The position numbers and the translations under genes were made by a program. A model generated the notes under the pieces. It was not told the DNA's origin. It made no database searches and was given only the letters and a program-made list of their open reading frames with translations. From NCBI RefSeq assembly GCF_016811915.1, contig NZ_CP069127.1, forward strand, positions 4,067,001-4,131,000: 64,000 nucleotides of DNA, given 5' to 3'. The DNA comes from Brevibacillus choshinensis (GTDB taxonomy: Bacteria; Bacillota; Bacilli; Brevibacillales; Brevibacillaceae). Shown one piece after another: positions 1 to 56,351 of this stretch (positions are counted from its first letter, which is position 1; every line of letters starts with the position of its first letter).

Positions 1-742
1 TCGGATAGACGATATCCACGGTGTTGGATGCATTATTGCCCGCACCGAATGGGGGATCAACCGATTGGAAGGCAGCAGTCGCACCCGTATATCTGTACGC
101 GATGTTGTTAGATTCGAGTCCAACCTGCCACTCTGAATTCAGGAACGCTTTCAATCCTTCGTCACTCAACCGATAGCTGGAAATGCCCATGACCATGCGG
201 ATATCGATGGAGGAAGAAAATCGGGGGAGATATTCCTCCGGGATTCGCGTCCCCACATGATGGAAGACGCCTGGCAAAGGCTCCCCGATGATTACCTCGT
301 CCCCTGCAAGCAGTTTTCTTCCCTGAAATCCACCCAATTGACTCAAGGTGTACGTCGATTTCGAGCCGAGCACGTCGGGAACCTGAATCCCCCCTGACAC
401 GCACAAATAGGTTTTTACGCCTTTGGCCGTTGAACGAAGGGTGAGAACATCACCTTCTTGGACGCAGACCGACTCCCACATGGGGATGGGCTGCCCGTTC
501 ACTTTCACATCCATAGGGGCGCCCGTGATGGCGATGACCGTTTTCTTGCGCACTTCGATTTTGGGACCGAGCAGCGTGATCTCCAGAGCGGCATAGTCGA
601 TGGGATTGCCCAATAAAATGTTTCCCAGACAAAACGAATATCTGTCTGCTGCACCGGAAGGAGGAACCCCTAAGTGGTAGTAATCTTTTCGGCCCGAATC
701 CTGCACCAAGGTTTGCAATCCACCGTCCAAGATGTAGAACAA
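1..742 (-). CDS. pxpC: Biotin-dependent carboxyltransferase / 5-oxoprolinase subunit C-like (second copy, 3' end outside window)
   Basis: PxpC/KipA-like protein of the carboxyltransferase subdomain C/D family, which acts with PxpB and PxpA in ATP-dependent opening of 5-oxoproline or related substrates. The visible 247 residues begin LFYILDGGLQTLVQDSGR and contain the family motifs GVPPSGAADRYSF, ALEITLLGP, GGFQGRKLLAGD and PPFGAGNNASN. The chosen start is TTG at 742, because GGAGGGG lies 7 bases upstream and the preceding pxpB copy stops one base before it; no suitable ATG exists. The gene runs off the left edge. It clearly resembles the pxpC at 6260-7228 but is distinct in sequence. The family is sure; the substrate is unknown. 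Confidence 0.85.
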   Translation of the reverse strand, partial: MFYILDGGLQTLVQDSGRKDYYHLGVPPSGAADRYSFCLGNILLGNPIDYAALEITLLGPKIEVRKKTVIAITGAPMDVKVNGQPIPMWESVCVQEGDVLTLRSTAKGVKTYLCVSGGIQVPDVLGSKSTYTLSQLGGFQGRKLLAGDEVIIGEPLPGVFHHVGTRIPEEYLPRFSSSIDIRMVMGISSYRLSDEGLKAFLNSEWQVGLESNNIAYRYTGATAAFQSVDPPFGAGNNASNTVDIVYP

Positions 743-743
743 G

Positions 744-1631
744 CTAGAACCCCTCCATCAATTGCTTCAGATAGCCTTTTCTGTCGGCGAAATAGTCTTC
801 CGTCGAGAAATCTACGTATTTGATCCGGTATCGGTACGTCCCTTCATCGACCTGCTGGACAATCCGATTGTACTCGGCTTCGTCAACGGGACGATGCTTC
901 CAGATATCTCCTGGCTTGGCCAAAAAGAAGGTATCCTTGAGATCGGGAAGCCTCTGCGATTGATCGAATACGGGAACCGCTGCCATCCCAATCAGCTGGT
1001 AGCTGCCGGGGGCACTCAGCGGATAGATCACTGTAAACGCCCCACCGATCCCGACAGCCTGGCTCGGTGTATCAGTCCGGGGGCTTATGTATTTAGGCGT
1101 CTGGATGATTTGCTCTTTCGTAAGACCGAGCGGATATTCCCATGCCGTTCCGGGGATAAATCCCATCATCGTGATCAGGTAGGGACTGGAGGAATGTGCC
1201 TCGATAAAGCGCTCCTTTTCGGCATAGCCGTTCAACTTCATGACCAGCTCAAAATTGCTTTTTGCCTCATGGGCGATATTGCGCTCCTGAAAGCGTCTGC
1301 TGTACTCCTGTGTCAGCGGATCGTCATACCAGATCGGGATCTCGACAATACGGACCTGCATGTTCAATTCGGACGGATTGCTTTTCGTGATGTCAATCTC
1401 TTTCAAATACTCCAGAAGGTCGGCGACAGAAATCACTTCCGGATCGAAACGGATGATATACGAAGAGTTGGAGGGACAAATATCTTGGATGCCAGGTATT
1501 TGCCGCTTCCGCAATTCGTTTGTGACGGCTAATGCCTTGAAATTGCTTTCCTCCCTCATGTCCCGGGAGATCTCCGCGTAGATGTACTCGTCACCGCCGA
1601 AGTCGAATCTGGTTTCTGGCAGGGTAAACAT
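744..1631 (-). CDS. pxpB: 5-oxoprolinase subunit B-like (KipI/allophanate hydrolase subunit 1 family), second copy
   Basis: Carboxyltransferase domain subunit 1 family, 295 residues, normally paired with a PxpC protein. Family motifs visible are GGDEYIYAEIS, DICPSNSSYIIRFDP, GFIPGTAWEYPL, PRTDTPSQAVGIGG and PLSAPGSYQLIGM. The ATG at 1631 is preferred over a TTG two codons upstream, since AAGGAG sits 6 bases before the ATG. It lies 14 bases downstream of the sigma-54 activator gene and 1 base upstream of the second pxpC copy, so the three are probably cotranscribed. No PxpA partner is seen here, so this pair may share the PxpA at 3831-4589 or an external one. Confidence 0.88.
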   Translation of the reverse strand: MFTLPETRFDFGGDEYIYAEISRDMREESNFKALAVTNELRKRQIPGIQDICPSNSSYIIRFDPEVISVADLLEYLKEIDITKSNPSELNMQVRIVEIPIWYDDPLTQEYSRRFQERNIAHEAKSNFELVMKLNGYAEKERFIEAHSSSPYLITMMGFIPGTAWEYPLGLTKEQIIQTPKYISPRTDTPSQAVGIGGAFTVIYPLSAPGSYQLIGMAAVPVFDQSQRLPDLKDTFFLAKPGDIWKHRPVDEAEYNRIVQQVDEGTYRYRIKYVDFSTEDYFADRKGYLKQLMEGF

Positions 1632-1645
1632 AAGCAACTCCTTTT

Positions 1646-3718
1646 CTATTGCAGAAATTTCTGAATTCTGCGACTAAGTGTAGCAGGACTTACGCCAAGG
1701 ATTTTGGCAACTTTCGAGGCGGTGCCGTATTTTTTCAAAGCAAGCGAGATCAGTTGATTCTCCACTTCCTCGACCGCTTCTCTCAGCGGCATGATGTCCA
1801 GTACCAATGTTTTGTTCTCCCGACCGCGATCTTCTTCCACATATAAATGAGGGAGAACGTCTTCCGTACCGATATTGTCTTTTCTCGTTGTCACGACTAG
1901 TCTTTCGATTACGTTTTGCAGTTCTCTGACATTTCCTGGCCAAGCATAGCCCTCCAAGGCATTCAGAGCTTCCCGGGTCAGGCTTTTGTCGAGATGGTAT
2001 AGGCTGTTGAATCGCTTCAGGAAATGAATGGCCAACGGAATGATGTCCGGCGTTCGCTTGCGGAGCGGCGGTATCTCGATGGGAATCACATGCAAGCGGT
2101 AATACAGATCTTCCCGAAATTTTCGACTCCTCACCAGTTCTTTGAGATTCTGGTTGGTTGCCGCAATCACACGCACATCGACGGGAAAGGTTCTTGTTCC
2201 TCCGACACGCATGATTTCCCGCTCCTGCAGGACACGAAGGAGTTTCGCCTGCATGGGGTATGGCAGCTCCGTCACCTCGTCGAGAAAGATGCTTCCTTTG
2301 TGCGCCAGTTCGAACAAGCCCGGCTTACCCTTTTGATCCGCTCCGGTAAATGCCCCTTTTTCATAGCCGAACAGTTCGCTTTCGATTAAACTTTCAGGGA
2401 GAGCTCCGCAGTTGACCCGAATGAACGGTTCATTCTTTCTTGCGCTGTACTCATGGATCGTTTGGGCGAAGACCTCTTTTCCCACACCCGATTCCCCCAC
2501 AAGCAGCACCGTCGAATCCACCTGGGCGATATGCTTTACCTCGTCAACCAGCCTTTCCATCCCTTTGGAGCGGTAGACCAGTTTTCGTAGGTTATCCTGC
2601 CTGGTGAGGATCTCATCCATATCTGGATCATGATCTTTCGCTTTCCTTCCTGACATTTCCAATTCAGGGCGCATGACGTGGATCCCGGTGATATCCCGGG
2701 ACAAGATCACGACCTTTTCCAGCTTGTCACCGTGAAATACCGGGGTGGCGACCGACCAGACCATTCTGCCCTTTTGGGATTCCTGGATCATGGACAGCTT
2801 TTTCTTCTGCGTCATGCACAAATCGGCAATGTTCGGATAAAAAATCCCTGCCCTTTCAAGCTGATAGACGTCCGAATCGATCAGCTGTTCGGGGGTTTGC
2901 ACCTGCCAGAAATCACGCAAAAAGGTTCCCGCGATCCGGACGATTTTGCCGGCATGATTGACCACGATGATTTGCTCGTTTTCCGAGGAATAGATGGCCT
3001 GCAAATCGTCGCTGATATTGCGAACGAATTCGAGCTCATTCACGGCTTCTCCCAATCTTTCCCGGTGGGAGAAGATATGCACGATTCCGATGATCTTGCC
3101 ATTTTCATAGAGGGGAGAAAAATTTCCGCTGATCCGTTTGTAGTTGATAGAGCTTTCCACGCTGAGCAGCTGTTTTCCTGATAAGACCTCTTCCAAATCC
3201 TTGTCGATGGTGAGCAATGTTTTATAGTTCCGATATTGCAGGACGGTTTTTGGCAACCCGAGGATTTGCTCTGCGGTTTCATTCATGAAGGTGATTTCAA
3301 AGTGAGGGTCTGTCGTGATGATGCCTATGCCTGAGCTGTTGAAGATGTGATTCAGCTGCTCTAGCTTGTACTGGCCGAGGTGATTTTTGGCCTCGCTGGC
3401 ACTGGTATACCCCGCGATGTTTCCTGCCTGATCCATCCCCAATACGACATGGATATTGTGATAAAAGGAAATGGGGCTCTCGGCAGGCACCCGAACCATA
3501 TCTTTTCGATACTCTACCTGTCCGGATAAGTCGCCGGACGCTGTGATCTGCCCCAGGAGGAAAGGTCGGTCGATATAGCCGACAATCCCTTGGTGCGAAT
3601 CGTCAACGAGCAGCAGATCCAGTTTGCTCGATTCCAACAAGACTAGCGCTTCCTGTATGGTGCTCTCGATCGGTAACAAGATGGAAACCGGTCTCAAGAT
3701 ATCTTTCCATACCAGCAA
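1646..3718 (-). CDS. Sigma-54-dependent transcriptional activator with CBS, PAS, AAA+ and Fis-type HTH domains
   Basis: Enhancer-binding activator of about 690 residues. In order: a CBS-like region (1-110), two PAS-like sensor regions (about 125-225 and 240-345), the AAA+ domain (about 385-620) and a Fis-type helix-turn-helix at 655-690. The AAA+ domain has Walker A GESGVGKE near 408 and the sigma-54 contact loop GAFTGA near 455; the HTH contains TASKVAKILGVSPATLSRR. TTG at 3718 is chosen because GGAGGGG lies 5 bases upstream; a longer frame back to 3868 would overlap pxpA and a terminator. It is the obvious candidate regulator of the sigma-54 promoter at 14221-14235. The CBS and PAS regions suggest that it senses a small molecule, which is unknown. 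Confidence 0.92.
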   Translation of the reverse strand: MLVWKDILRPVSILLPIESTIQEALVLLESSKLDLLLVDDSHQGIVGYIDRPFLLGQITASGDLSGQVEYRKDMVRVPAESPISFYHNIHVVLGMDQAGNIAGYTSASEAKNHLGQYKLEQLNHIFNSSGIGIITTDPHFEITFMNETAEQILGLPKTVLQYRNYKTLLTIDKDLEEVLSGKQLLSVESSINYKRISGNFSPLYENGKIIGIVHIFSHRERLGEAVNELEFVRNISDDLQAIYSSENEQIIVVNHAGKIVRIAGTFLRDFWQVQTPEQLIDSDVYQLERAGIFYPNIADLCMTQKKKLSMIQESQKGRMVWSVATPVFHGDKLEKVVILSRDITGIHVMRPELEMSGRKAKDHDPDMDEILTRQDNLRKLVYRSKGMERLVDEVKHIAQVDSTVLLVGESGVGKEVFAQTIHEYSARKNEPFIRVNCGALPESLIESELFGYEKGAFTGADQKGKPGLFELAHKGSIFLDEVTELPYPMQAKLLRVLQEREIMRVGGTRTFPVDVRVIAATNQNLKELVRSRKFREDLYYRLHVIPIEIPPLRKRTPDIIPLAIHFLKRFNSLYHLDKSLTREALNALEGYAWPGNVRELQNVIERLVVTTRKDNIGTEDVLPHLYVEEDRGRENKTLVLDIMPLREAVEEVENQLISLALKKYGTASKVAKILGVSPATLSRRIQKFLQ

Positions 3719-3812: not shown

Positions 3813-3834
3813 CTGACCGCATGCTTGCGATCAG
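3813..3834 (-). terminator. Rho-independent terminator at the end of the catabolic operon
   Basis: A stem of nine pairs with one mismatch and a 4-base loop is followed on the minus strand by eight T residues. It overlaps the pxpA stop codon. It separates the long operon (14170-3831) from the regulator/pxpBC unit to the left. Confidence 0.85.
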
Positions 3835-4589
3835 CTTTTTCGTATCGGTTCGATGGCAATGCCGGCAATGCGAAAGGCTTCGTGAATGTGCCTGGTCAGC
3901 TCTACCGCCCCTGGGGTATCGGCGTGGATGCAGATCGTTTCGGCATGCACCTGCGTTTCTTCCCCATCGGGAGTAAGCACGACGCCTTCTTTGACCATGC
4001 GTACCACGCGCGCTGCCATTGCTTCGTAGTCCTGAATGTTCGGGCCTGTTCGGGTGAGGACGATGGAGCCCTCTTTTGTATGCTCTCTGTCCGCGTATAC
4101 CTCTCGCACGACCTGCACGCCCATTTGCTGTCCGACCCATTCGACCGCGGAGTTTTGCAGGGCGAAGACGATCATCTCCTTGGAAACGCTAACCAATGCT
4201 TCCAGTATGGCTCTGGCGATTTTTTCGTCATCCATGGCCATCATGTACAAGGCTCCGTGCGGCTTGCAATGCTGCAGCTCCAGCTGAAAGCACGAAGCAA
4301 ACTCTCGCAATGCCCCGACTTGATAAAGGATATAGTCCCGGATCTCATCAGGCGTACACGTCATGTACCGCCGCCCAAAGCCCATCTGATCCGGAAAGCC
4401 AGGATGCGCACCGATCGCTACGCCATACTCCTTGGCCATTTGGACCGTTTTTCTCATGACTTGGGGATCTCCAGCGTGGTAGCCGCAAGCGATGTTGGCG
4501 GAGGATATGTACTTGATCATTTCCTCGTCGCTGCCCATTTTGTAGAGCCCGAAGCTCTCCCCCATATCACAATTCAGATCTACCTTCAC
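3831..4589 (-). CDS. pxpA: 5-oxoprolinase subunit A (LamB/YcsF family)
   Basis: LamB/YcsF family protein of 252 residues, the standard length. It begins KVDLNCDMGESFG, the signature start of the family, and has ANIACGYHAGDP, IGAHPGFPD and QHCKPHGALY. PxpA works with PxpB and PxpC to hydrolyse 5-oxoproline with ATP. The GTG start at 4589 follows AGGGGGGAG. It is the last gene of the operon, 18 bases after the biotin carboxylase. Because biotin carboxylase and carrier genes sit beside it, the substrate here may be another lactam or cyclic amide; that is inference. Confidence 0.92.
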   Translation of the reverse strand: MKVDLNCDMGESFGLYKMGSDEEMIKYISSANIACGYHAGDPQVMRKTVQMAKEYGVAIGAHPGFPDQMGFGRRYMTCTPDEIRDYILYQVGALREFASCFQLELQHCKPHGALYMMAMDDEKIARAILEALVSVSKEMIVFALQNSAVEWVGQQMGVQVVREVYADREHTKEGSIVLTRTGPNIQDYEAMAARVVRMVKEGVVLTPDGEETQVHAETICIHADTPGAVELTRHIHEAFRIAGIAIEPIRKS

Positions 4590-4607
4590 TCTTTCTCCCC
4601 CCTGACG

Positions 4608-5948
4608 TTACTTGATTAGCGCGGATTCCACGAATTTCGTATCGTAAGTCCCTGCTTGAAAGGCTGGATCATCCATGATGGACGCAAGCAAAGGCAGATT
4701 GTTTTTGATCCCGCTGATCACGCATTGCTCCAAGGCATCTTTCATTTTTCGAATCGCTTCCTGCCTGCTTGCACCGTGCGTGATGATTTTTCCAATCATC
4801 GGGTCGTAGAAGGGGGTGACCTGATTTCCTTCGGTTACGGCAAACTCGAGACGCGCCCAGTCGGGGAGCCGCAGCGTCTCGATCTTTCCTGGCGAGGGCA
4901 TAAAGGTGCGGGCATCCTCTGCATACAACCGACATTCAATGGAATGACCCTGCGGCGACAAAGGGATTTCATCCAGATCGAGCGGCAGACCAGCAGCGAT
5001 TTTGAGCTGCCACTCCACGAGATCCACACCTGTAATTTCTTCCGTCACCGGATGCTCCACCTGAATGCGCGTATTCATTTCAAGGAAGTAGTATTCTCCC
5101 TGTCCATCCACGATGAATTCCATTGTCCCTACATTGGTGTAGCCGATGCTTGCCGCCCCTCTCACCGCTGCCGCACATAACGCTTCACGGGCCTGCGGGT
5201 CAAGAAAAGGGGATGGCGCCTCTTCCACTATTTTTTGGTTGCGCCTCTGGATGGAACATTCCCGTTCCCACAAGTGCACCAGGTTGCCGAGCGAATCCCC
5301 GACGATCTGTACCTCGATATGGCGCGGTGAGGTGATATACTTCTCCAGAAACAAGGTATCATCGCCAAAGTACGAGCCTGCACGCTGAGCCGTGCTCTCA
5401 AATGCTTTTTCCAGCTCCTGATCGCTGTGAACAATCTGCATGCCGATCCCGCCGCCGCCGGCACTCGCCTTGAGCATGATCGGATAGCCTATTTCGTTTG
5501 CCGCCCGTTTGGCTTCCTCCACCGAGGAAAGTCCGTGATCGACTCCCGGAACGATCGGAATCCCAGCGGCCTGCATCTGATTGCGGGCAGCTATCTTGTC
5601 GCCCATCAGTCGAATCACCGATGCAGATGGGCCGATAAAGGTGAAGCCTTCCTCGGTGCACCTTTCCGCGAATGCACCGTTCTCAGCCAAGAATCCATAG
5701 CCGGGGTGGATGGCGCAGGCTCCGGTTTCTTTTGCAGCCCGGATGATATTGTCCATATCCAGATAGCTTTTCTTGACGGGGGCAGGACCGATGCATACGG
5801 CTTCATCCGCTTCCCGGACAAACAAGGCGTCCTTGTCAGCCTCCGAGTAAACGGCAACCGTTTGAATCGACAATCGCTTGCAGGTGCGGATGATTCGGCG
5901 GGCAATTTCCCCTCTGTTGGCGATCAGCACTTTTTTGAAATAGCTCAT
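4608..5948 (-). CDS. accC: Biotin carboxylase subunit (AccC-like)
   Basis: ATP-dependent biotin carboxylase, 446 residues, which carboxylates biotin on the carrier protein using bicarbonate. It begins MSYFKKVLIANRGEIA; the ATP-grasp glycine-rich loop KASAGGGGIGM is near residue 160, followed by EMNTRIQVEHPVTEE and the C-terminal domain motif IECRLYAED. The start at 5948 has GGAGG 5 bases upstream; the longer ATG at 5990 has no such site. Its neighbours are a biotin carrier and PxpA/B/C rather than the usual fatty-acid genes. It is therefore probably a dedicated catabolic carboxylase and not the housekeeping acetyl-CoA carboxylase subunit. Confidence 0.92.
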   Translation of the reverse strand: MSYFKKVLIANRGEIARRIIRTCKRLSIQTVAVYSEADKDALFVREADEAVCIGPAPVKKSYLDMDNIIRAAKETGACAIHPGYGFLAENGAFAERCTEEGFTFIGPSASVIRLMGDKIAARNQMQAAGIPIVPGVDHGLSSVEEAKRAANEIGYPIMLKASAGGGGIGMQIVHSDQELEKAFESTAQRAGSYFGDDTLFLEKYITSPRHIEVQIVGDSLGNLVHLWERECSIQRRNQKIVEEAPSPFLDPQAREALCAAAVRGAASIGYTNVGTMEFIVDGQGEYYFLEMNTRIQVEHPVTEEITGVDLVEWQLKIAAGLPLDLDEIPLSPQGHSIECRLYAEDARTFMPSPGKIETLRLPDWARLEFAVTEGNQVTPFYDPMIGKIITHGASRQEAIRKMKDALEQCVISGIKNNLPLLASIMDDPAFQAGTYDTKFVESALIK

Positions 5949-5997
5949 GTTATCCTCCATTTTTCCAGAAGCGGTTTTTGCGCGCAGCACACCAAAG

Positions 5998-6240
5998 CTA
6001 CTTCAAGGTGACGAGCTCCTGATCCACATCCACAATGCTTTCGTTTTCAACAGCGAAGCAGTCAATGACTCCGTCCACTTCCACTTTCACTTCGTAGAAA
6101 TTTTTCATGACTTCGATGAGTCCGACGATATCACCGGCTTTGACCGAGTCGCCTTCCTGCACATAGTCCGGTTTATCCGGGCTGGGTTTTCGATAAAACA
6201 CACCTGGCAAAGGGGAAAGAATCGCTCTTTTTTCGCTCAT
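5998..6240 (-). CDS. Biotin carboxyl carrier protein (AccB-like, short form)
   Basis: An 80-residue protein consisting of a biotinyl/lipoyl domain alone. The biotinylation site is the lysine of EVMKNFYEV (residue 46), and the opening ILSPLPGVFYRKPSPDKPDY matches biotinyl domains. It would carry carboxybiotin between the neighbouring AccC-like enzyme and a carboxyltransferase, probably the PxpB/PxpC pair immediately upstream. It lacks the long N-terminal region of housekeeping AccB proteins. Confidence 0.88.
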   Translation of the reverse strand: MSEKRAILSPLPGVFYRKPSPDKPDYVQEGDSVKAGDIVGLIEVMKNFYEVKVEVDGVIDCFAVENESIVDVDQELVTLK

Positions 6241-6259
6241 ACCAGTTCCTCCTGTCCAT

Positions 6260-7228
6260 TTATAGAGAAGCGGCGATGCGTCTCAGTTTTTCCTGTGTTT
6301 CTCTTCTGGCCTGCAGAGCTTCGATCATGGATACCGAAACAAAGCGAACCTTCTCATTCGTCTTGATTTGTCCCATGCGGTTCAAATCACTGCTGATGAC
6401 CGTGGCGATCGTGGCATATCCGCCTCCCGTCACCGCATCATGCAGCAGAACGATCGGTTCCACACCATCCGGTACCTGAATGGATCCGATCGGATAGCCG
6501 AGATCGGTCACATTCGACGGATTGCTGCCGGCTCCAAAAGGCTGCTTTCGCTCGACGAACTGAAGTCGCTCTCCCCGATGGCGATACCCGATGCGGTTGG
6601 CCTCCGGAGTAACCGTCCATTCCGTCTGCAAAAACGACTGTTTGCTCTCTTCTGTCAGCCGATAGCTGCAAAGGCCGACGACGACCCTGATTTCGTGCGC
6701 TTTGCCAAAGGCGGGGATGTCCGCATCCGAAATCTTGCTGCCTACCGGAACATCCTTTTCCTTCATGTGTCCGGTTTGCAGGACATCTCCTGCAGCCAAG
6801 GGTCTGCCCTGAAAGCCACCGATGCCAATGAGCGTGTAGGTGGACCTTGAATTCATGATGACCGGGACGTCAATGCCGCCTTCTACTGCCAAATACACTC
6901 TCGCCCCTGACTTGACGAAATCGAAGGACAGGACATCTCCCTCACGTACCGCGAGCGTTTCCCACATGGGGACGGATTCCCCATTGATCTTGGGTGGCAT
7001 GCTGCCTCCCGTGAGGCTGATACGCATGTCTTTTTCAAACAAAAGCTCGGGACCGAGATAGGTGATTTCCAGAGCAGCTGCATTCGGCTGATTTCCGACG
7101 AGCAGATTGGCGACCGTATAGGAATATTGATCCATCGCACCGGAAGGAGGCATGCCGATCTCATAGAAGCCGATTCGTCCCTTGTCCTGAACCGTTGTTT
7201 GCAGACCCGGTTTGCTCACCTTAATCAT
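6260..7228 (-). CDS. pxpC: Biotin-dependent carboxyltransferase / 5-oxoprolinase subunit C (first copy)
   Basis: PxpC/KipA-like protein of 322 residues. It begins MIKVSKPGLQTTVQDKGR; motifs include GMPPSGAMDQYSY, GGFQGRPLAAGD and PFGAGSNPSNVTDLGYPIG, and a glycine-rich GGYATIATV element near the C-terminus. GAGGAGG lies 7 bases upstream of the ATG. Its start overlaps the end of pxpB by 8 bases, the normal translational coupling of this pair. The carboxyltransferase-like fold together with the adjacent biotin carrier supports a real biotin-dependent carboxyl transfer here. Confidence 0.9.
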   Translation of the reverse strand: MIKVSKPGLQTTVQDKGRIGFYEIGMPPSGAMDQYSYTVANLLVGNQPNAAALEITYLGPELLFEKDMRISLTGGSMPPKINGESVPMWETLAVREGDVLSFDFVKSGARVYLAVEGGIDVPVIMNSRSTYTLIGIGGFQGRPLAAGDVLQTGHMKEKDVPVGSKISDADIPAFGKAHEIRVVVGLCSYRLTEESKQSFLQTEWTVTPEANRIGYRHRGERLQFVERKQPFGAGSNPSNVTDLGYPIGSIQVPDGVEPIVLLHDAVTGGGYATIATVISSDLNRMGQIKTNEKVRFVSVSMIEALQARRETQEKLRRIAASL

Positions 7229-8096
7229 GGTACAACCTCCTCATTACGCTCTCCGAGAAAGACTCCAGATCCCCCAAAACCTCGCCGGGGGTAAAGGTAA
7301 ACGCCTTTTTCTGATAGGTAAAGGTACCCTCGTCCACTTGCTTGCGGATGTCGTCGTATTCGTCGCGGGTAATGCTGCGGTAGCGGAAAATGTCGCCTTG
7401 CTGCGGGAATACCATGGAATCCTTGAAGTCAGGCAGCGTCTGCTCTTTTTGATAGATGGGAGCAGGAGCAATTCCATAGAGCTGATATCCGCCGGCACCC
7501 TGTACGGGGTAAATGACGGAAAAGGCTCCGCCAAAACCGAATGCGCGCTCTGGCGTAAAAGTCCGCGGGCGAACGTATTTGGGCACTTCGATCTGCTTTT
7601 CACGCGGAACCATCTGAAAGCACCATGGCAGGCCCGGAACAAAGCCGATCATGGAAACGAGGAAGGGAGATCGCGTGATGGCTTCGATGAAGTCGTCCGT
7701 ATTCGCGTATCCATTGATGCGGGCGGAATATTGAAGGTCGGTTGCCTCGGGATCCTGGTGTCGATCCCGAAAACGCATCAGTGCTTCATGCGTCCACGGA
7801 TCTTCAAAGAGGACGGGGACATCCACCAAACGGCTGGAGATCGTCACATCCAGTGGGTCGATTGTCCTTTCAATTTCCTTCAGCTCGTTCATCAGCACTT
7901 CCGGATCAAGGACATCCGGATCGAAGCGCACCATGTACGACGCGTTGGATGGACAAATATCGAGGATCCCTTCTACTTGCTTTTCCTTTAATTTCCGGGT
8001 GATCGCCATGCCGGCGAAGTTGGATTCCAGACTCATCTCTTCGGATAGCTGGACAAAGATGAATTCGTCACCGCCGTATTCATAAAGTGTATTCAC
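7221..8096 (-). CDS. pxpB: 5-oxoprolinase subunit B (KipI family, first copy)
   Basis: Carboxyltransferase subunit 1 family protein of 291 residues. Motifs are GGDEFIFVQLSEEMS, DICPSNASYMVRFDP, GFVPGLPWCFQM, PERAFGFGGAFSVIYP and QGAGGYQLYGIAP. The GTG start at 8096 follows GGAGGTGAG. It is translationally coupled to pxpC downstream. It is homologous to the copy at 744-1631 but only moderately similar, so the two pairs are not a recent duplication. Confidence 0.9.
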   Translation of the reverse strand: MNTLYEYGGDEFIFVQLSEEMSLESNFAGMAITRKLKEKQVEGILDICPSNASYMVRFDPDVLDPEVLMNELKEIERTIDPLDVTISSRLVDVPVLFEDPWTHEALMRFRDRHQDPEATDLQYSARINGYANTDDFIEAITRSPFLVSMIGFVPGLPWCFQMVPREKQIEVPKYVRPRTFTPERAFGFGGAFSVIYPVQGAGGYQLYGIAPAPIYQKEQTLPDFKDSMVFPQQGDIFRYRSITRDEYDDIRKQVDEGTFTYQKKAFTFTPGEVLGDLESFSESVMRRLYHD

Positions 8097-8149
8097 GTCT
8101 CACTCACCTCCATAATGGGTCCTGCTGTGCATGCTTGCTCATGACGCAT

Positions 8150-8758
8150 TCATCGCATTTGTTTAGCTGCTTCGAAATCAGCAAGCGTATCGATGTCAAA
8201 GTGGATGCCAGGATCATTGACAGGCAAAAGAATTCGCCGCTTCATGCTGGCAATGATCGCTTTGGCACCTTGGTCCCCTTCCAGCTCTTCAAACAGATGG
8301 CTGCTCACATTTCCGAAAAAGACGGGATGCCCGGCCCTCTCCTGATAGGCCGGCTGGATCACAAAAGCTTCCTGCTCCTGCTGCAGCATTTGATTCCCGC
8401 GCGACCATACCTCATGAACCGTTTGGCTGCAGACATAAGGCTGATCACCGAGGAATACCATGACCGAAGCGTGGGTTTCCAAGGCTTTTCGAATGCCCAG
8501 CTTGAACGATGTGCTTTGACCCGTCCGGTACAGCGGATTGAACACCCATTGAAAGCGCGGATCATCGATGGGGATGGAGCGCGAAATCTTGTCAGCCTCG
8601 TGGCCAATCACGGCTGCTACTTGGGCAAACTCCTCTTTTAGCGCCAGCCCTATGACGTGTTCGAGCAAAGGACGTCCATGCAGGTCCAGCAGCTGTTTGG
8701 CCGAACCCATTCGGGAGGACATTCCGGCTGCCAATATCACAGCGCAAATCTGTCTCAT
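8150..8758 (-). CDS. Molybdenum cofactor nucleotidyltransferase (MocA-like)
   Basis: Nucleotidyltransferase of the MobA/MocA family, 202 residues. It has the N-terminal nucleotide-binding motif VILAAGMSSRMGSAKQLL and the metal-binding FLGDQPYV near residue 106, with NPLYRTGQSTSF and GHPVFF typical of MocA/CoxI-type enzymes. These cytidylylate molybdopterin to make the dinucleotide form used by xanthine-dehydrogenase-type hydroxylases. Its place between the hydroxylase genes and pxpB supports that role. It starts 21 bases after the XdhC-like gene. Confidence 0.88.
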   Translation of the reverse strand: MRQICAVILAAGMSSRMGSAKQLLDLHGRPLLEHVIGLALKEEFAQVAAVIGHEADKISRSIPIDDPRFQWVFNPLYRTGQSTSFKLGIRKALETHASVMVFLGDQPYVCSQTVHEVWSRGNQMLQQEQEAFVIQPAYQERAGHPVFFGNVSSHLFEELEGDQGAKAIIASMKRRILLPVNDPGIHFDIDTLADFEAAKQMR

Positions 8759-8779
8759 TTTGAACAGTCCTCCTGCTTG

Positions 8780-9922
8780 TCATCTCGCTGTAACAGGGAT
8801 TCGGTGGATGCGAGCTTTGTCCCGCAGGCGTCCGCCTTCGTGCCCGCTGCGCATGGCAATGATTTCTGCCAGAATACTGACGGCGATCTCCTCTGCGGAC
8901 TCTGCTCCGATGTCGTGTCCAATCGGGCTAAACAGACGCTCCAACTGGCGGTCGCCAAAAAGACAACCTTCCTCTCCAAGGCCCTCCAGAATGCGGTTGG
9001 CACGCGATCTCGGTCCCAGCAATCCGACGTACGGCGCAGGCGTGGACAGCACGTATTTCAACGCTTCCCGATCCCTCTCCAGATGGTGGTTCATGATGAT
9101 GACATAGGTCCGCTTGTCGATCATTACTTTTTCACGATACTGACTCGGTTCGGTCAATATACGAGTCGCCTGGGGAAATCGATCCACCGTATTGTAAGCG
9201 GGACGCGGGTCGATTACGGTAGTCGGAAATCCTAATGATGCGCTGAGCCTGGCTACGGGAACGGCATCGTGGCCGGCACCGAATATCATGACTGCCGGTG
9301 CCGGAACGGAGATGTCGACGAACAAGTTTACCGTTGTACCGTCCTCCAAGGTGAGGGAGCGGCTTTCGGATTTTGGACTTTGCTCATGGAACAGTTCGCT
9401 CGCCCACGCTGCCACCGTTTGGTTTACCCTCTCGTCTCCGAGGCATCCCGCTGCATATCCATCTTCTGAGAGGAACATCCGGCTTCTGTTCGCTGAATCG
9501 CTGTCTGTTCCGGCTGCAGGTTGCACCGTGCACAAGGCTGCAGCTCTGCCTGTGCGAAGGCTTTCGATCCAGAGCGCAAAGGCAGGCTGCCATTCAGAGA
9601 CTGCCGATACAGGCTCCAGATAGATATCGACCGTTCCCGGACAGCCCAGCCCGAGACCCCAAACCAGATCTTCTCCCAGCTCATATCGTTTGATCAGCGG
9701 CATGTTTTGCTCCATGACGGTCCGCGCCGTTTCAGCAACGTCCGCCTCGAGGCATCCGCCCGAGATCAAGCCGACATGATGGCCGGTTTCATCGACGAAC
9801 ATTTTCGCGCCTTCTCGCCGATAGGCTGAACCCTTGATTTGCACCACCGTCGCAAGTACGCCTTTTTTCCCGGCTTTGCGCGCTTCCACAAGCGCTTGCA
9901 GGACTGCCTCGTTTTCCCTCAT
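8780..9922 (-). CDS. XdhC/CoxI family molybdenum cofactor insertion protein
   Basis: XdhC family protein of 380 residues. The N-terminal domain has VVQIKGSAYRREGAKMFV and GLISGGCLEADV; the C-terminal half is Rossmann-like, with MIFGAGHDAVPVARL and VIDPRPAYN. Family members bind molybdenum cofactor, help its sulfuration and load it into xanthine-dehydrogenase-like enzymes. It lies directly downstream of the FAD subunit gene. The assignment is firm at family level. Confidence 0.9.
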   Translation of the reverse strand: MRENEAVLQALVEARKAGKKGVLATVVQIKGSAYRREGAKMFVDETGHHVGLISGGCLEADVAETARTVMEQNMPLIKRYELGEDLVWGLGLGCPGTVDIYLEPVSAVSEWQPAFALWIESLRTGRAAALCTVQPAAGTDSDSANRSRMFLSEDGYAAGCLGDERVNQTVAAWASELFHEQSPKSESRSLTLEDGTTVNLFVDISVPAPAVMIFGAGHDAVPVARLSASLGFPTTVIDPRPAYNTVDRFPQATRILTEPSQYREKVMIDKRTYVIIMNHHLERDREALKYVLSTPAPYVGLLGPRSRANRILEGLGEEGCLFGDRQLERLFSPIGHDIGAESAEEIAVSILAEIIAMRSGHEGGRLRDKARIHRIPVTAR

Positions 9923-9953
9923 CCCTACACCTCCGTTCGATACAGGCAGCTCA

Positions 9954-10811
9954 TTACAAAAGAATTTGGGTCAACGCTCTCTGGGTATATACCGAAGCGA
10001 GATGGCGCCGGTATTCTTCGGAAGCGAACAGATCGCTGCCAATCTCTCCTTCATTTGCAGCGAGTGCTGAGGCAAGGCGAATCGTATCGGCTGTCGGTAT
10101 CTCTCCCAGCAGCGCTTGCTCGACGGAAGTGGCGCGATAGGCGATGTCGGCGGCTCCATTGATGCCGATCCGCACGAAATCGATCCGGCCATCCTGCCCC
10201 ACTCCTGCAATGGCGCATACGCCGACCACTGCATAGCCCGAAGCCGGGTGCGCGTATTTCAGATAGACACTCTTCGCATGGGCAGGAGGGATCAGGAAGG
10301 AGACGGATGCAAGCACGCTGGTCTCCGGCAAGGCGGTGACAAGCGGCCCGAGAAAGAACCCTTCGGCGTCCAAGGATTCCTTCCCATCTTCCCCTTGCAC
10401 TTCCATGAACGCATCCAGCGCAAGCGCCACACCTGGAAGGTCTGCGGCAGAATCGGCATGGGCAAGATTGCCGCCGACTGTTCCCCGGTTGCGAACCTGC
10501 ATGTCCCCGATGGTCCGGGCCGCTTCTGCCAATACGGGAATGTTTTGCTTGACCAGCTCATCCTGATACAATTGCTTATGTGTGGTCAAAGCTCCCACCA
10601 CCAGTCTGTTTCCTTCCTTGCGAATGCCTCTGAGATCTGTAATTTGGCTGATGTCAATCAGCTTGCCGGGGTTGGTCAAGCGGAATTTCATCAACGGCAC
10701 AAGACTGTGACCGCCCGCAATGAACTTGCCCTCACCGCCGCTCTCCTGCATCAGTCGAATCGCTTCCTCGATGGAGCCTGCCTGTACGTACTCAAACGAG
10801 TTGGGTATCAT
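9954..10811 (-). CDS. Molybdenum hydroxylase FAD-binding subunit (CoxM-like)
   Basis: Medium, FAD-binding subunit of a xanthine dehydrogenase/CODH-type hydroxylase, 285 residues. It has the two flavin motifs GGHSLVPLMKFRL (about 32-44) and TIGDMQVRNRGTVGGNLAHA (about 100). The ATG at 10811 follows GGAGGGAAA and overlaps the large-subunit stop in an ATGA arrangement; an upstream start at 10844 is less likely. It passes electrons from the 2Fe-2S subunit to FAD and on to an external acceptor. Confidence 0.92.
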   Translation of the reverse strand: MIPNSFEYVQAGSIEEAIRLMQESGGEGKFIAGGHSLVPLMKFRLTNPGKLIDISQITDLRGIRKEGNRLVVGALTTHKQLYQDELVKQNIPVLAEAARTIGDMQVRNRGTVGGNLAHADSAADLPGVALALDAFMEVQGEDGKESLDAEGFFLGPLVTALPETSVLASVSFLIPPAHAKSVYLKYAHPASGYAVVGVCAIAGVGQDGRIDFVRIGINGAADIAYRATSVEQALLGEIPTADTIRLASALAANEGEIGSDLFASEEYRRHLASVYTQRALTQILL

Positions 10812-13156
10812 GCGTTTTCCCTCCTGTTTTGCATCGCTCTCCATACTTTTTCCGGTGTGAGAGGCATATCCAAATCCTTGATCCCAAACGGTCGCAAGGC
10901 ATCCATGACCGCATTTACGACTGCTGGCGGCGCCCCCGTGGTTCCCGTTTCCCCCACGCCTTTTGCCCCCAGAGGATTGACCGGCGATGGCGTCTCGATA
11001 AAGTGGGACTCGATCGTCGGGAAGAAACGTGCTTTCGGCATGGTGTAATCCATGAATGTCCCTGACAGCAGCTGACCATTTTCACTGTAGACGGCACCTT
11101 CCCACAGCGCTTGGCCGATCCCCTGAACAATCCCGCCATGCACCTGGCCCTCCGCCAGCATCGGATTGATCACGCGGCCGATATCATCCACGGCAACATA
11201 GCGTTTCAGCTCGATTTCCCCCGTTTGCGGATCCACTTCCACCACGCAGATATGAGCGCCGAACGGATAAACGAAATTCGGTGGGTCAAAGAACGATTGC
11301 CCTTCCAAGCTAGGCTCTACGCCATCCGGCAAATTCCAGGCAAAGTTGGCTGATTTGGCAATTTCTCTGAAGGAACGCTTTCGCTCCGGAGCTCCCTTGA
11401 CGGCAAAAATACCTTCTGAAAATTCCAACTCTTCTACGGACGTTTCCAGTTCGTGTGCGGCAATCTTCTTCGCCTTTTCGATCACCCGATCCGTCGCGAT
11501 GGAAACCGCTGCGCCGCCTACCGCTGTATTTCGCGAGCCGTACGTGCCCCAGCCCATGGAGACGCTCCGGGTATCTCCGGAAATCAGCTCGATATCATCA
11601 ATGGAAATGCCTAATTTTTCCGCGACGACTTGCGCAAACGTCGTGGCTGTTCCCTGGCCATGTGGAGATGTTCCCGTAAAAACGGCGACTTTACCGCTCG
11701 GATGGACGCGCACGGTGCTGTTTTCCCAGACTCCGCCTTGGAATCCGATGGCTCCCGCAACTTTTGATGGACCAAATCCGCACAGCTCCACATAGGTAGA
11801 AATACCGATCCCGAGCAGCTTCCCTTGCTCACGCATTTTCTCCTGTTCTTTTCGCAGGGCAGGGTAGCCTGCAATGTCCAGCGCGCGATCCAGCGTATCT
11901 TGGTAATTGCCGCTGTCGTAGCTGACGCCCATGGCGGTGCTATAAGGGAACGCTTCCTTTGGGATCAGATTTTTCTGCCTGAGCTCTACCGGATCCATCC
12001 CGATCTCCTGGGCGAACAGATCCACGATGCGCTCGATCTGGAAGGCTGCTTCCGGTTTGCCTGCACCGCGGTAGGCGTCTGTCGGAGTCGTATTGGTGTA
12101 GACGCCGTAGGTAACCACTTCAGCCTTGGGGATGGTGTAAGCTCCTGTCACCATCAAGCCAAAGTCGATGGTCGGGCAACCAGCTCCAAACGTGGACAGG
12201 TATGCGCCCAGGTTTGCGGTATTTTTGACGCGCAGGGCCGTGAAAGTCCCGTCTCGCTTTCCAGCCAGCTCAACTTCGATCACTTCATCACGCGCATGCG
12301 TAGTGGCCATGAAATGCTCTTTGCGTTCCTCGATCCATTTCACCGGCCTCTTCAGATCGCGTGCCGCGTGCCCGATCACTGCCTCTTCATTGTAGGTGGC
12401 GATCTTTGATCCAAATCCGCCGCCGACATCGGGAGCGACAATTTGCAGCTTGGATTCCGAGATATCCAGTACGTCCGCATACACCATCCGATGGATATGC
12501 GGATTTTGCGAAGTACACCAAATGGTCAACTCGCCGCTTCCCGGGTTGTACTGGGCGACTGCTCCCCGCGTTTCGATCGGATTGGGAATCACGCGTTGGT
12601 TGTATAACCGCTGACGGACGACGACTTCGGCATTTTGAAATTCTTCGTCCGGAATCTCTCCCGCTTTCCACAGCAAAGCCAGGTTGTTCTCGACGTCATC
12701 ATGAACGAGCGGCGCTTCAGGGAGAAGGGCTGCTTCCTGGTGGACAACCGCCTGCAGATCTTCGTAGTCGACTTCGATCAAATCCAGGGCATCACGGGCA
12801 ATATACCGGTTTTCCGCTACGACCAGCGCGACGCATTCACCGGCGTAGCGGGTCTTGTCGACAGCGAGCGTGCTGCGGTCCTTTGGCTTCAGGTCAGCAC
12901 CGGGCAAGAACCACATGGCGGGTACCGCTTTCACTTTTCCCACGAGATCGTTTCCCGTATAGACAGCCGCCACTCCGGGAAGCTCCAGTGCTTTGGATGC
13001 GTCTATTTTCAAAATTCGCGCATGCGCATGCGGGCTGCGCAAGAATGCACCGTACAGCATCCCCGGAAGTTTGATATCATCCGTAAAATGGCCGTTCCCG
13101 GTAATGAGCTTCGGGTCTTCCTTTCGTTTCTGCGGGGTTCCAATCAGCTTTGCCAT
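10808..13156 (-). CDS. Molybdenum hydroxylase large (molybdopterin-binding) subunit, CoxL form II-like
   Basis: Molybdopterin-binding catalytic subunit of 782 residues. The active-site loop near residue 365 reads AYRGAGKPEA, the AYRGAG pattern of form II CoxL-like and xanthine-dehydrogenase-like enzymes and not the AYxCSFR of true CO dehydrogenases. VGGGFGSK (near 250) and GVGETGTTGAPPAV, with the catalytic glutamate of GVGE (near 740), are intact. It therefore most likely hydroxylates a carbon next to nitrogen in a heterocycle or an aldehyde-like substrate, not CO. It is the second of the three subunits in the operon. Confidence 0.92.
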   Translation of the reverse strand: MAKLIGTPQKRKEDPKLITGNGHFTDDIKLPGMLYGAFLRSPHAHARILKIDASKALELPGVAAVYTGNDLVGKVKAVPAMWFLPGADLKPKDRSTLAVDKTRYAGECVALVVAENRYIARDALDLIEVDYEDLQAVVHQEAALLPEAPLVHDDVENNLALLWKAGEIPDEEFQNAEVVVRQRLYNQRVIPNPIETRGAVAQYNPGSGELTIWCTSQNPHIHRMVYADVLDISESKLQIVAPDVGGGFGSKIATYNEEAVIGHAARDLKRPVKWIEERKEHFMATTHARDEVIEVELAGKRDGTFTALRVKNTANLGAYLSTFGAGCPTIDFGLMVTGAYTIPKAEVVTYGVYTNTTPTDAYRGAGKPEAAFQIERIVDLFAQEIGMDPVELRQKNLIPKEAFPYSTAMGVSYDSGNYQDTLDRALDIAGYPALRKEQEKMREQGKLLGIGISTYVELCGFGPSKVAGAIGFQGGVWENSTVRVHPSGKVAVFTGTSPHGQGTATTFAQVVAEKLGISIDDIELISGDTRSVSMGWGTYGSRNTAVGGAAVSIATDRVIEKAKKIAAHELETSVEELEFSEGIFAVKGAPERKRSFREIAKSANFAWNLPDGVEPSLEGQSFFDPPNFVYPFGAHICVVEVDPQTGEIELKRYVAVDDIGRVINPMLAEGQVHGGIVQGIGQALWEGAVYSENGQLLSGTFMDYTMPKARFFPTIESHFIETPSPVNPLGAKGVGETGTTGAPPAVVNAVMDALRPFGIKDLDMPLTPEKVWRAMQNRRENA

Positions 13157-13158
13157 CG

Positions 13159-13680
13159 TCAGCGTCCCTCCCCTGCACTGGTAATCGTTTCTTTCGACTG
13201 GTTGGCTTCAGCGATCAGCTTGGCGGCATGCTGCACGGCGCTGACGATAAATTGGTAGCCGGTACAGCGGCAGATGACTCCTTCGAGCGCATCCCGAATC
13301 TCCTCCTCGGATGGATCCGGATTCTCCTTTAATAGGCCAACCATCGAAATCATCACACCGGGTGTGCAAAAGCCGCATTGCAATCCGTGCTTCTCCCAGA
13401 ATCCTTGCTGGATCGGATGCAGCTGCTCCATGTCTCCGAGCCCTTCGACCGTGGTGACATGTGCACCGTCCGCTTGTACGGCAAGGACCGTACAGGATTT
13501 GACCACTTCTCCGTTCAGCATCACCGTACAGGCACCGCACTGGCTTGTGTCGCAACCGATATGCGTCCCAGTCAGGTTGAGGTCTTCGCGCAAGAAGTGA
13601 GCCAGCAGCAGGCGCGGCTCCACTTCCGCCTGTTTTTGGACTCCGTTAACCGAAAGCGCAATCTTCTTTGTGAATGTCAT
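13159..13680 (-). CDS. Molybdenum hydroxylase 2Fe-2S subunit (CoxS-like)
   Basis: Small iron-sulfur subunit of 173 residues. The plant-type cluster cysteines are in GCDTSQCGACTVMLNG and SCTVL; the second cluster lies in LQCGFCTPGVM and VICRCTGYQ. The ATG at 13680 follows AAGGGGGTG. It stops 2 bases before the large subunit. The subunit relays electrons from the molybdenum centre to FAD. Confidence 0.93.
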   Translation of the reverse strand: MTFTKKIALSVNGVQKQAEVEPRLLLAHFLREDLNLTGTHIGCDTSQCGACTVMLNGEVVKSCTVLAVQADGAHVTTVEGLGDMEQLHPIQQGFWEKHGLQCGFCTPGVMISMVGLLKENPDPSEEEIRDALEGVICRCTGYQFIVSAVQHAAKLIAEANQSKETITSAGEGR

Positions 13681-13705
13681 CACAGAGCACCCCCTTGTTT
13701 CGTTT

Positions 13706-14170
13706 TCATTCCGAATGTGATGCCAGCTGCTTCATTTCTTTGTCCACCGCTTTGAAAAATTGACCCAACACCATTTTGGCGACGCCGCCCATGACACGCT
13801 GACCGACGGATGCCAAAACACCGGTGACCTGGACTTCTGTGGAACAGGTGAGTTGGGTTCCCTGATCAACCTCGTCCAGCCGCATGTCGGCAACGGCGTC
13901 AATCTCTCCCGGCAGCCCCTTCCCGCGGACCAGCAAGCGGTAGAAGGACGGCTCTACCTGGTCCACCTGTTGAACCTGTCCTGCAAACACCCCTTTCACC
14001 GGTCCCACGCTCACGCCCATTTCCGCGTGATAGACCCCATCCTCCATTTTTGAAAAGGATTTACATCCTGGAATGGACTTCTTCAAGACTTCTTCGTCTT
14101 GAATCAGCTTCCACACGATGTCTCTTGGAATGTCAAAGGTGTATGTATGCTCTAGCTTCAAGTCTTTCAT
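13706..14170 (-). CDS. CoxG-like SRPBCC family protein
   Basis: A CO dehydrogenase subunit G-like protein of 154 residues, starting MKDLKLEHTYTFDIPRD. SRPBCC motifs include DIVWKLIQDEEVLKKSIPG and a C-terminal GQRVMGGVAKMVLGQFF helix. The start at 14170 has AGGGGGGA directly upstream. An apparent earlier start at 14236 must be wrong, because that extension is encoded by the sigma-54 promoter itself. CoxG proteins help recruit or mature molybdenum hydroxylases at the membrane. It is the first gene of the operon. Confidence 0.9.
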   Translation of the reverse strand: MKDLKLEHTYTFDIPRDIVWKLIQDEEVLKKSIPGCKSFSKMEDGVYHAEMGVSVGPVKGVFAGQVQQVDQVEPSFYRLLVRGKGLPGEIDAVADMRLDEVDQGTQLTCSTEVQVTGVLASVGQRVMGGVAKMVLGQFFKAVDKEMKQLASHSE

Positions 14171-14220
14171 TCCCCCCTGTTTGTTCACATGTTGGTTCCG
14201 ACGTGTTGCTTTGAAAGGGA

Positions 14221-14235
14221 GCAACTTTCGTGCCA
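14221..14235 (-). promoter_or_regulatory. Sigma-54 (-24/-12) promoter
   Basis: Minus-strand TGGCAC, five bases (GAAAG), then TTGC: an exact match to the sigma-54 consensus with correct spacing of the invariant GG and GC. It lies about 50 bases before the first operon gene at 14170. The operon should need sigma-54 and an enhancer-binding activator; such an activator is encoded at 1646-3718. Confidence 0.92.
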
Positions 14236-14275
14236 TTCGGTTTTCATTGAGTTTGGGGTGTTCATGAGCGGAGTT

Positions 14276-14312
14276 CTTTCATTTTTGAAAGATTGGATTT
14301 CAGAAATGAAAG
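14276..14312. promoter_or_regulatory. Candidate enhancer (UAS): two palindromes of the form TTTCA-N4-TGAAA
   Basis: CTTTCA-N4-TGAAAG at 14276-14291 and TTTCA-N4-TGAAA (plus a further G) at 14298-14312. Their centres are about 21 bases apart, two helical turns, and 55-80 bases upstream of the -24/-12 element. The spacing and placement fit binding sites for the Fis-type HTH of the neighbouring activator. Confidence 0.7.
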
Positions 14313-14411: not shown

Positions 14412-16613
<2,202 letters not shown>

Positions 16614-23285: not shown

Positions 23286-23391
23286 AAATATCACCCCTTC
23301 TTCATTAATTACATACATATTTAAGCTTTTAATAAAGGACCAAACCAGCTAAAGTTACTTCAATGAAAAAAACATACACTTTTGGCAATTT

Positions 23392-39000: not shown

Positions 39001-39124
39001 TGAAACCGCCACGCATTATTTCGGCTTGCTCTGGGGCTACCAACTTGTAATCTAAGCCCTGTAATACCTCAAGAGCAGGCTGTTGACTTATGTATCGCTC
39101 ATCATAGCTATTCGTTCGTTCCAC
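36043..39124 (-). pseudogene. hsdR: Type I restriction enzyme R subunit, split by a small deletion
   Basis: HsdR, the ATP-dependent translocase/nuclease subunit. The 5' part (39124 to about 37200) has the nuclease region (RPDIVLFVNGIPFAVIECKK), Walker A THGSGKS-type THTQGSGKSLTM and VDESHRTQYG, and ends in VVDKLLTGFDA, then CFIY and a stop at 37178. The 3' part continues in another frame with VLYIDKPMKEHTLLQAIARV through 36043. Homologues have a PRNT-like stretch between FDA and VLY; here only one base remains, which fits an 11-base deletion. GTG at 39124 follows GGAGGTG. Restriction is probably lost. Confidence 0.88.
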
Positions 39125-39166
39125 TTTCACACCTCCAATGCAATTCTTAGGGAAAAAGGGCAAAGG

Positions 39167-41946: not shown

Positions 41947-42081
41947 TACTGTTCCCCCTAAGATTGTCTTCATTTTGATATTCAAACTCTATCCAATTAA
42001 AAATAACAAATACCTTCTTTATAAGTATACAAGATAGGAAGGGGAGCGAGTATATCTCCCCTTCTAACACTTAATGGGGTT

Positions 42082-56197: not shown

Positions 56198-56351
56198 GTA
56201 TTTTTCTCCCATGTTCCATAATCACAAAAATTCAATTTCTTCCCAATATATTATAATTCTCGTCATCCCCTTTGTCGCTTAGTGATTTTCCAAAATAAGA
56301 ATCAAACATCTTTCCACCTATACTTCTTTTCTCAGTTTGTAGATAAAAAAA

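Follow-up and report, generated by a model that had tools for sequence, protein, structure and literature searches.

Several enzyme systems that open lactams with ATP have been described, and here we compare with them an operon of Brevibacillus choshinensis that joins genes for a molybdenum (Mo) hydroxylase, a biotin carboxylase (BC), a biotin carrier protein (BCCP) and homologs of all three 5-oxoprolinase subunits. The operon lies in a stretch of 64,000 nucleotides (NCBI RefSeq assembly GCF_016811915.1, contig NZ_CP069127.1, positions 4,067,001 to 4,131,000 of the forward strand), the whole of which we call the window. The anaerobic indoleacetate pathway of Aromatoleum, where a lactam formed by a Mo hydroxylase is opened by an ATP-dependent enzyme, resembles the route proposed here and differs in its Hydantoinase/HyuAB-type opener, aromatic substrate and lack of biotin. 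PxpABC (YbgJKL of E. coli; KipI/KipA/YcsF of B. subtilis) has the same three subunits and ATP-driven lactam opening; the operon departs from it by a PxpB with lysine instead of arginine at the position of the urea carboxylase base and a score under TIGR00370, by dedicated BCCP and BC subunits, and by the hydroxylase and a sigma-54 activator. In the available sections of a 2026 paper, PxpB/PxpC is assumed to phosphorylate 5-oxoproline, and biotin occurs in those sections only in a strain table and a reference (PMC13274462). Urea amidolyase and urea carboxylase have BC, BCCP and the same carboxyltransferase fold with the lysine, and carry out N-carboxylation before a hydrolase acts, a chemistry that the operon may share; its subunits are separate and small rather than parts of one chain, PxpA stands in place of allophanate hydrolase, and the substrate is presumably a cyclic amide. 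The caprolactamase CapAB of Pseudomonas jessenii also opens a lactam with ATP and belongs to an unrelated protein family; CapAB-like genes lie beside the same activator block in relatives of the operon. According to the available part of the source, caprolactamase needs bicarbonate, and lactim carboxylation is one proposed mechanism (PMC8453981), a parallel that lends N-carboxylation in the operon plausibility and no more. Form II CoxSLM hydroxylases share the coxG-S-L-M order and the AYRGAG motif with the operon, which differs by AYRGAGK in place of AYRGAGR and by its tie to lactam genes; the activity of form II enzymes is described as unresolved in the accessible portions of two papers (PMC13240472, PMC7248562).

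We propose, with a probability of about 0.5, that the operon encodes a catabolic route for a lactam-yielding nitrogen compound, in which the hydroxylase would act first and a biotin-driven ring opening would follow. A narrower version, to which we give rather less than even weight, is a biotin-dependent lactamase (N-carboxylation, PxpA-type opening, bicarbonate regenerated) joined to a form II-like hydroxylase that would make 2-pyrrolidinone from 1-pyrroline. Among the matches listed from the open-licence literature, no paper dealt with a biotin-dependent lactamase or with this operon.

Operon organization and gene content

The original prediction had placed the hydroxylase, its cofactor proteins, CoxG, BC, BCCP and PxpABC in a single operon of ten genes. 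The minus strand carries every named gene in the stated place and order (CoxG-S-L-M-XdhC-MocA-PxpB-PxpC-BCCP-BC-PxpA), and adjacent genes either overlap or lie no more than 53 nt apart, so the single operon was borne out and the gene count corrected to 11. Past position 3831 the unit continues, beyond what had been predicted: next come a sigma-54 activator and then another PxpB-PxpC pair, whose last part lies outside the window.

13706..14170, minus strand: CoxG-like protein (PF06240); ATG at 14170, a longer open reading frame (ORF) to 14236 overlaps the promoter
13159..13683, minus strand: [2Fe-2S] small subunit of the Mo hydroxylase, CoxS-like (PF00111 and PF01799)
10808..13156, minus strand: large subunit of the Mo hydroxylase, CoxL-like; AYRGAGK, KGVGETG kept, without the CO dehydrogenase (CODH) cysteine motif
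9954..10844, minus strand: FAD subunit, CoxM-like (PF00941 and PF03450)
8780..9922, minus strand: XdhC/CoxI maturation factor (PF13478 and PF02625)
8150..8758, minus strand: MocA-like molybdopterin nucleotidyltransferase (PF12804; TIGR03310 140.5 bits, below the cut-off of 186.45)
7221..8096, minus strand: PxpB-like carboxyltransferase half with urea-carboxylase-type lysine (PKYVRPRT; PF02682; alignment to K1605 of K. lactis urea amidolyase)
6260..7228, minus strand: PxpC-like carboxyltransferase half that groups with urea carboxylase in the tree (PF02626)
5998..6240, minus strand: BCCP, 80 aa, biotinylation motif EVMKN (PF00364; NF005457 99 bits, above 87)
4608..5990, minus strand: BC subunit (PF00289, PF02786, PF02785; NF006367 630.8 bits, above 597)
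3831..4589, minus strand: PxpA/LamB-YcsF hydrolase, the proposed ring-opening subunit (PF03746; NF003814 337 bits, above 226)
1646..3700, minus strand: sigma-54 activator (PAS, AAA+ with GAFTGA, Fis-type HTH); start uncertain, the ORF opens at 3868 inside pxpA
744..1637, minus strand: PxpB2, a second PxpB-like protein with catalytic-type lysine (PF02682)
1..742, minus strand: PxpC2, a second PxpC-like protein, 3' end outside the window (L004:9765-10742)

CoxD and CoxE are not in this operon, though some relatives have them, among them B. reuszeri, in which the gene order is otherwise the same. The same genome carries a third, ordinary PxpABC set about 1.36 Mb distant (L052). Besides the ordinary PxpA next to that set, there is an extra PxpA-like gene at G000:C1:2323613-2324359, 35% identical to the operon PxpA.

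Conservation of the locus

PxpC orthologs of at least 60% identity were found in 25 of 398 Bacilli genomes, with the hydroxylase linked in 16 of the 25. Besides the window, 31 loci with a PxpC above this threshold, from the Bacilli sample, a family-level set and named loci, were tabulated. BCCP and PxpB are present in all 31, PxpA in 28, the activator in 22, the hydroxylase in 21, BC (at least 55% identity) in 18, PxpB2 in 17, PxpC2 in 16, GABA (gamma-aminobutyrate) transaminase GabT (at least 50% identity) in six and succinate-semialdehyde dehydrogenase (SSADH) in five. The original prediction would have been refuted by biotin and hydroxylase genes lying apart in most relatives; BCCP and hydroxylase stand together in 21 of the 31 loci. 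BCCP is kept even where BC is missing at the 55% threshold, and the biotinylation motif E.MK occurs in 32 of 32 carriers of pathway loci. In the B. reuszeri record (L038, 8403-9470) BC is split into two ORFs and BCCP is intact, which fits the idea that BC is replaceable by a housekeeping subunit.

The same thresholds were applied to 46 control loci. Among 26 ordinary PxpABC loci, BCCP was found in one (L051, 36% identity) and GabT, SSADH and hydroxylase in none; among 20 unlinked hydroxylase loci, BCCP, GabT and SSADH were all absent. Ordinary loci were read over about ±6 kb (19) or ±10 kb (7) and pathway loci over about ±10 kb, and all six counted GabT genes lie within about 4 kb of PxpC. Duplicate records were dropped before counting (L055-L057 of L036-L038; L062 of L092). 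L046 (G010) was kept out of both the 31 loci and the hydroxylase motif count given below, its hydroxylase being only 361 aa long and fused to a piece of the activator; positions 6581-10765 there are a decayed copy (CoxG, FeS subunit, then the truncated Mo large subunit with that piece) in which PxpB2-PxpC2 is intact and the intervening lactamase genes are lost.

Linkage recurs in four or more families of the sampled Bacilli, which takes it beyond chance. Hydroxylase genes precede the Pxp genes in Brevibacillus and follow them in Sporosarcina and L091, and the linkage has therefore survived rearrangement. In the Sporosarcina locus L063, one strand carries GabT-SSADH-PxpB-PxpC-BCCP-BC-PxpA-CoxG-S-L-M-D-E-XdhC. 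The set grows to 33 when two loci of greater distance are added, L064, where BCCP and BC are present, and L099, where BCCP is missing. Beyond Bacilli, one phylum-level sample of 398 genomes was surveyed, and matches at E of 1e-85 or lower occurred in two of them, the genome of the window and that of L143, a locus from another class of the phylum. The contig of L087 ends beside PxpB; between pxpA and the activator (5153-11646) this locus holds an amidase, an MFS transporter, a polysaccharide-deacetylase-like protein, a CobW C-terminal-like protein and two dehydrogenases. ABC importer genes (two-domain ATPase, BPD_transp_2-type permease) flank hydroxylase-free lactamase loci in L045 (4289-5791 and 2275-4265, permeases assigned by similarity to L064) and L064 (3927-6477), and may import the substrate.

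Probable carboxybiotin use by PxpB and PxpC

By sequence, the operon has the features of a biotin-dependent carboxylase: a complete BC with its three Pfam domains, a carrier with the biotinylation lysine and a carboxyltransferase fold with the urea-carboxylase general-base lysine. K1605 of K. lactis urea amidolyase is described, in the part of the source available, as most likely the essential general base of the carboxyltransferase, and K1605A severely inhibits the enzyme (PMC5770610). By alignment, the equivalent position is lysine in 33/33 pathway PxpB and 24/24 PxpB2 proteins, window rows included, and arginine in ordinary PxpB (7/7 by alignment and 19/19 more by motif check, 26/26 together). 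In a PxpC tree with a midpoint root and a long urea carboxylase branch, pathway proteins and PxpC2 fall together with urea carboxylase, and the ordinary proteins make up a separate group (support 100/97). Alignment columns of PxpC give weak support, six being common only to pathway proteins and urea carboxylase and two only to ordinary proteins and urea carboxylase. The window PxpC scores 236 bits against NF045499 (cut-off 500), under which the ordinary PxpC of the same genome (274) also falls. In PDB entry 9yx5, which we take to be of mycobacterial origin, the listing gives an acyl-CoA carboxylase alpha3 chain deposited together with KipA/KipI-like chains, and this suggests physical contact between biotin carboxylase and PxpBC-like proteins. 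With BCCP in all 31 loci and the urea-carboxylase-type lysine in all 33 PxpB proteins, it is very likely that PxpB/PxpC is a carboxybiotin-dependent carboxyltransferase, as had been suggested from the biotin genes alone. A one-residue test (K or R in PxpB) could sort genes that are now all annotated as 5-oxoprolinase.

Molybdenum hydroxylase

The enzyme had been classed as form II-type; its S-L-M gene order agrees with that class, and its active-site motif differs in the last residue, AYRGAGK standing where form II has AYRGAGR. This motif was found in 22/22 linked hydroxylases (window included) and AYRGAGR in 20/20 unlinked ones read. Of 23 unlinked matches at 59-68% identity, 20 were read (G053, G059 and G264 were left out), and a second, 37% hydroxylase copy of L121 was excluded from the count. 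Identity was tried as a divider and fails at the border (L063, 67.3%, linked; L109, 68.3%, unlinked); the K/R signature separates those read. The hydroxylase is separable from the rest of the pathway, since 10 of the 31 loci carry the lactam part without it in the stretch read (L087 of these at the contig edge); GabT is present in five of the 10. Several loci with GabT and without hydroxylase branch early in the PxpC tree, with weak support, which would fit later recruitment, and the hydroxylase is perhaps a later front-end. If our proposal is true, it would provide a physiological substrate for one branch of form II CO-dehydrogenase-like enzymes, a clade marked by AYRGAGK for which the role of such enzymes becomes directly testable.

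Regulation

A promoter-like site and twin boxes span 14220-14311, directly upstream of the interval covered by the original prediction.

14220..14235, minus strand: sigma-54 (-24/-12) promoter-like site TGGCACGAAAGTTGCT, 50 nt ahead of the CoxG ATG (14170), a match to the -24/-12 consensus
14277..14311, no strand: two palindromic boxes TTTCA-N4-TGAAA, 21 bp apart, predicted as the likely upstream activating sequences of the sigma-54 activator

We counted 58 copies of the box pattern in 40 pathway loci (789 kb; at least one in 25 of the 40), against 1.2 in five composition-only shuffles and none in the 46 control loci (774 kb). Because many of the loci come from close relatives, the 58 copies do not count as independent events. 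Fifty-three of the boxes lie near the start of a labelled gene (CoxG, PxpB, CapA, PxpB2-type or activator) and five elsewhere. Sigma-54-like sites number 41 in pathway loci against 5.3 in shuffled sequence and one and six in the two control sets; 30 are near starts of labelled genes, for example CoxG, PxpB, GabT and CapA. The activator of L094, L095, L097 and L098 shows only 35-38% identity; the box is absent from three of these loci and in L095 does not adjoin a labelled gene. As far as sequence can tell, the GAFTGA activator, the -24/-12 promoter and the upstream boxes expected of a sigma-54 enhancer-binding regulon are all present, and the operon appears to be switched by sigma-54 and, judging from its relatives, to be one regulated module. 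Further regulon members in this genome were considered and dropped: there are nine boxes genome-wide against seven for a reversed control pattern, and the only close pair is at the operon.

PxpB2-PxpC2 block and CapAB loci

In the loci read, PxpB2-PxpC2 adjoins the activator, and this block is conserved apart from the rest of the operon. It stands beside caprolactamase-like CapA/CapB genes in L047, L048, L100, L101 and L103. One switch thus seems to control two enzymes that are unrelated to each other and both likely to open lactams. The CapA/CapB-like proteins of L100 score 574 and 334 bits, below cut-offs of 1000, and there is no BCCP near PxpB2 in these five loci. CapA and CapB are not in the operon of the window, the rest of that genome not having been searched for them. 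KipI/KipA act on a kinase; PxpB2-PxpC2 may, on that model, be a sensor acting on the activator, or else a second carboxyltransferase fed by a housekeeping carrier.

Proposed substrate and pathway, and alternatives

We consider a lactam the probable substrate of the carboxyltransferase and PxpA; that the hydroxylase makes the lactam opened by PxpBC is slightly favoured. Opening of 2-pyrrolidinone would yield GABA, to which GabT at sister loci points. GabT and SSADH are both at the locus in L094, L095, L097, L098 and L063, GabT alone in L092, and in L099 GabT lies about 7-8 kb away. Six of these seven GabT genes were scored (L063, L092, L094, L095, L097, L099), and all exceed the NF005376 cut-off of 676; for SSADH, L094 and L097 pass the TIGR01780 cut-off, which L063 narrowly misses (643.8 vs 646.35). 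The genome of the window has two GabT-like genes elsewhere (58-59% identity). Mo hydroxylases attack C=N carbons, and oxidation of putrescine yields 1-pyrroline, on which grounds 1-pyrroline was chosen as the candidate substrate. Assignment to 2-pyrrolidinone and GABA in this genome is tentative. The original prediction had seen a complete module for an N-heterocycle; one module is retained, with a cyclic imine a better guess than an aromatic N-heterocycle.

We propose the pathway and its substrate from what the sequence shows: which genes are present and stay linked, the promoter with its boxes, the PxpB lysine and the signature of the hydroxylase. The Mo hydroxylase (L/M/S) would oxidise a cyclic imine, of which 1-pyrroline is the likeliest, at its C=N carbon with oxygen from water and so form a lactam, most likely 2-pyrrolidinone; the electrons would probably leave through CoxG to the membrane. 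BC would use ATP to charge the small biotin carrier with CO2 from bicarbonate, and PxpB-PxpC, with the conserved lysine as base, would pass this CO2 to the lactam nitrogen much as urea carboxylase does with urea. PxpA would then hydrolyse the activated N-carboxylactam, after which the carbamate would lose CO2 and free the omega-amino acid (GABA), bicarbonate thus serving as a catalyst. GabT and SSADH, at the locus in some relatives, could carry GABA on to succinate. If the proposal is true, cyclic imines, and hence putrescine or pyrrolidine, would have a new route to GABA; the carboxyltransferase fold of urea carboxylase and 5-oxoprolinase would also drive lactam opening by N-carboxylation, which bears on why caprolactamase needs bicarbonate, and such lactam-opening enzymes could conceivably serve nylon-monomer recycling.

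Several observations weigh against this proposal. GabT is absent from 20 of the 21 hydroxylase loci, so the case for GABA is carried over mainly from the sister loci. The best-scoring named models for the hydroxylase are glyceraldehyde dehydrogenase and CO dehydrogenase, not lactam-forming enzymes. L084-L086 have no PxpA at the locus, each genome carrying a 55-56% identical PxpA elsewhere, and two loci with lysine-type PxpB/PxpC, L099 and L143 (order A-B-C), have no BCCP within the stretch read. The KipA/KipI-like chains of 9yx5 have arginine at the lysine position, so the lysine is not needed for mere association; PxpB2 has the lysine although stand-alone PxpB2 loci are without BCCP, and the lysine alone is therefore no proof of carboxybiotin use. 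Finally, many loci come from close relatives, and the counts are not independent.

The alternative that survives best, unlikely in our estimate, places the hydroxylase downstream, as a Mo aldehyde oxidoreductase that replaces SSADH in oxidising the semialdehyde derived from the released omega-amino acid. Its best NCBIfam scores are indeed to glyceraldehyde dehydrogenase subunits (752.6 and 268.6 bits), albeit under the cut-offs of 790 and 350, and hydroxylase and SSADH are nearly exclusive, occurring together in one locus. That locus, L063, has hydroxylase, GabT and SSADH side by side, however, and the other 20 hydroxylase loci have no GabT. Somewhat less probable still are two co-regulated but separate functions, with the hydroxylase acting on another N-heterocycle or aldehyde, PxpBC-BCCP-PxpA on an unrelated lactam, and one activator governing nitrogen scavenging by both. 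The 10 loci with the lactam part alone, one at a contig edge, are in keeping with this, and each part can have its own sigma-54 site (L085, L086); yet AYRGAGK follows linkage (none of the 20 unlinked copies read has it), and the genes stay linked after rearrangement.

We regard as improbable a carboxyltransferase that, like urea carboxylase, targets the nitrogen of an amide other than a lactam, of a ureide or of a guanidine-like compound, with PxpA cleaving the product. The window PxpC scores higher against urea carboxylase (257 bits) than against the PxpC model (236) and groups with urea carboxylase in the tree, and an amidase lies beside the L087 locus, but caprolactamase-like genes share the activator block and boxes, and GabT points to GABA. 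Ordinary 5-oxoproline recycling is very improbable: although the subunits are homologous and PxpA passes its NCBIfam subfamily cut-off, the separate ordinary PxpABC of the same genome (L052) has a PxpB of 246 bits against TIGR00370 (cut-off 145.55) where the operon PxpB reaches 60.7, with K instead of R and a BCCP in all 31 loci, so the distinction from plain recycling drawn by the original prediction holds, as does that from CO oxidation. The latter can be practically dismissed, for in spite of CoxG, of CoxD/CoxE in relatives and of a CoxL as the closest solved structure by sequence (8uem), the window large subunit lacks the CO dehydrogenase motif (A/S)YRCS(F/L)R and scores 749 against TIGR02416, below the cut-off of 991, and the operon contains lactam genes.

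Genomic surroundings

KatG (14412-16613) was rejected as an operon member, there being no KatG match among those listed for the relatives' loci, and Rfam gave no match in the window. A horizontal origin of the operon was also discarded: the first 14.3 kb have 53.5% GC (48-57% by gene) against 37% in the rest of the window, and since other stretches read from the genome (L001, L003, L004) have 50.8-52.8%, it is the low-GC part (about 17-64 kb), not the operon, that is the odd one. Positions 17000-64000 are AT-rich (about 37% GC) and likely a defence island; a type I restriction-modification set is among its genes, which include the following.

21519-23318: protein kinase
36043-37227 and 37178-39163: HsdR, two overlapping ORFs
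40417-41985: HsdM
42082-44058: HsdM/S-like
53192-56212: UvrD-like helicase with zinc ribbons
56423-58510: GmrSD-type enzyme

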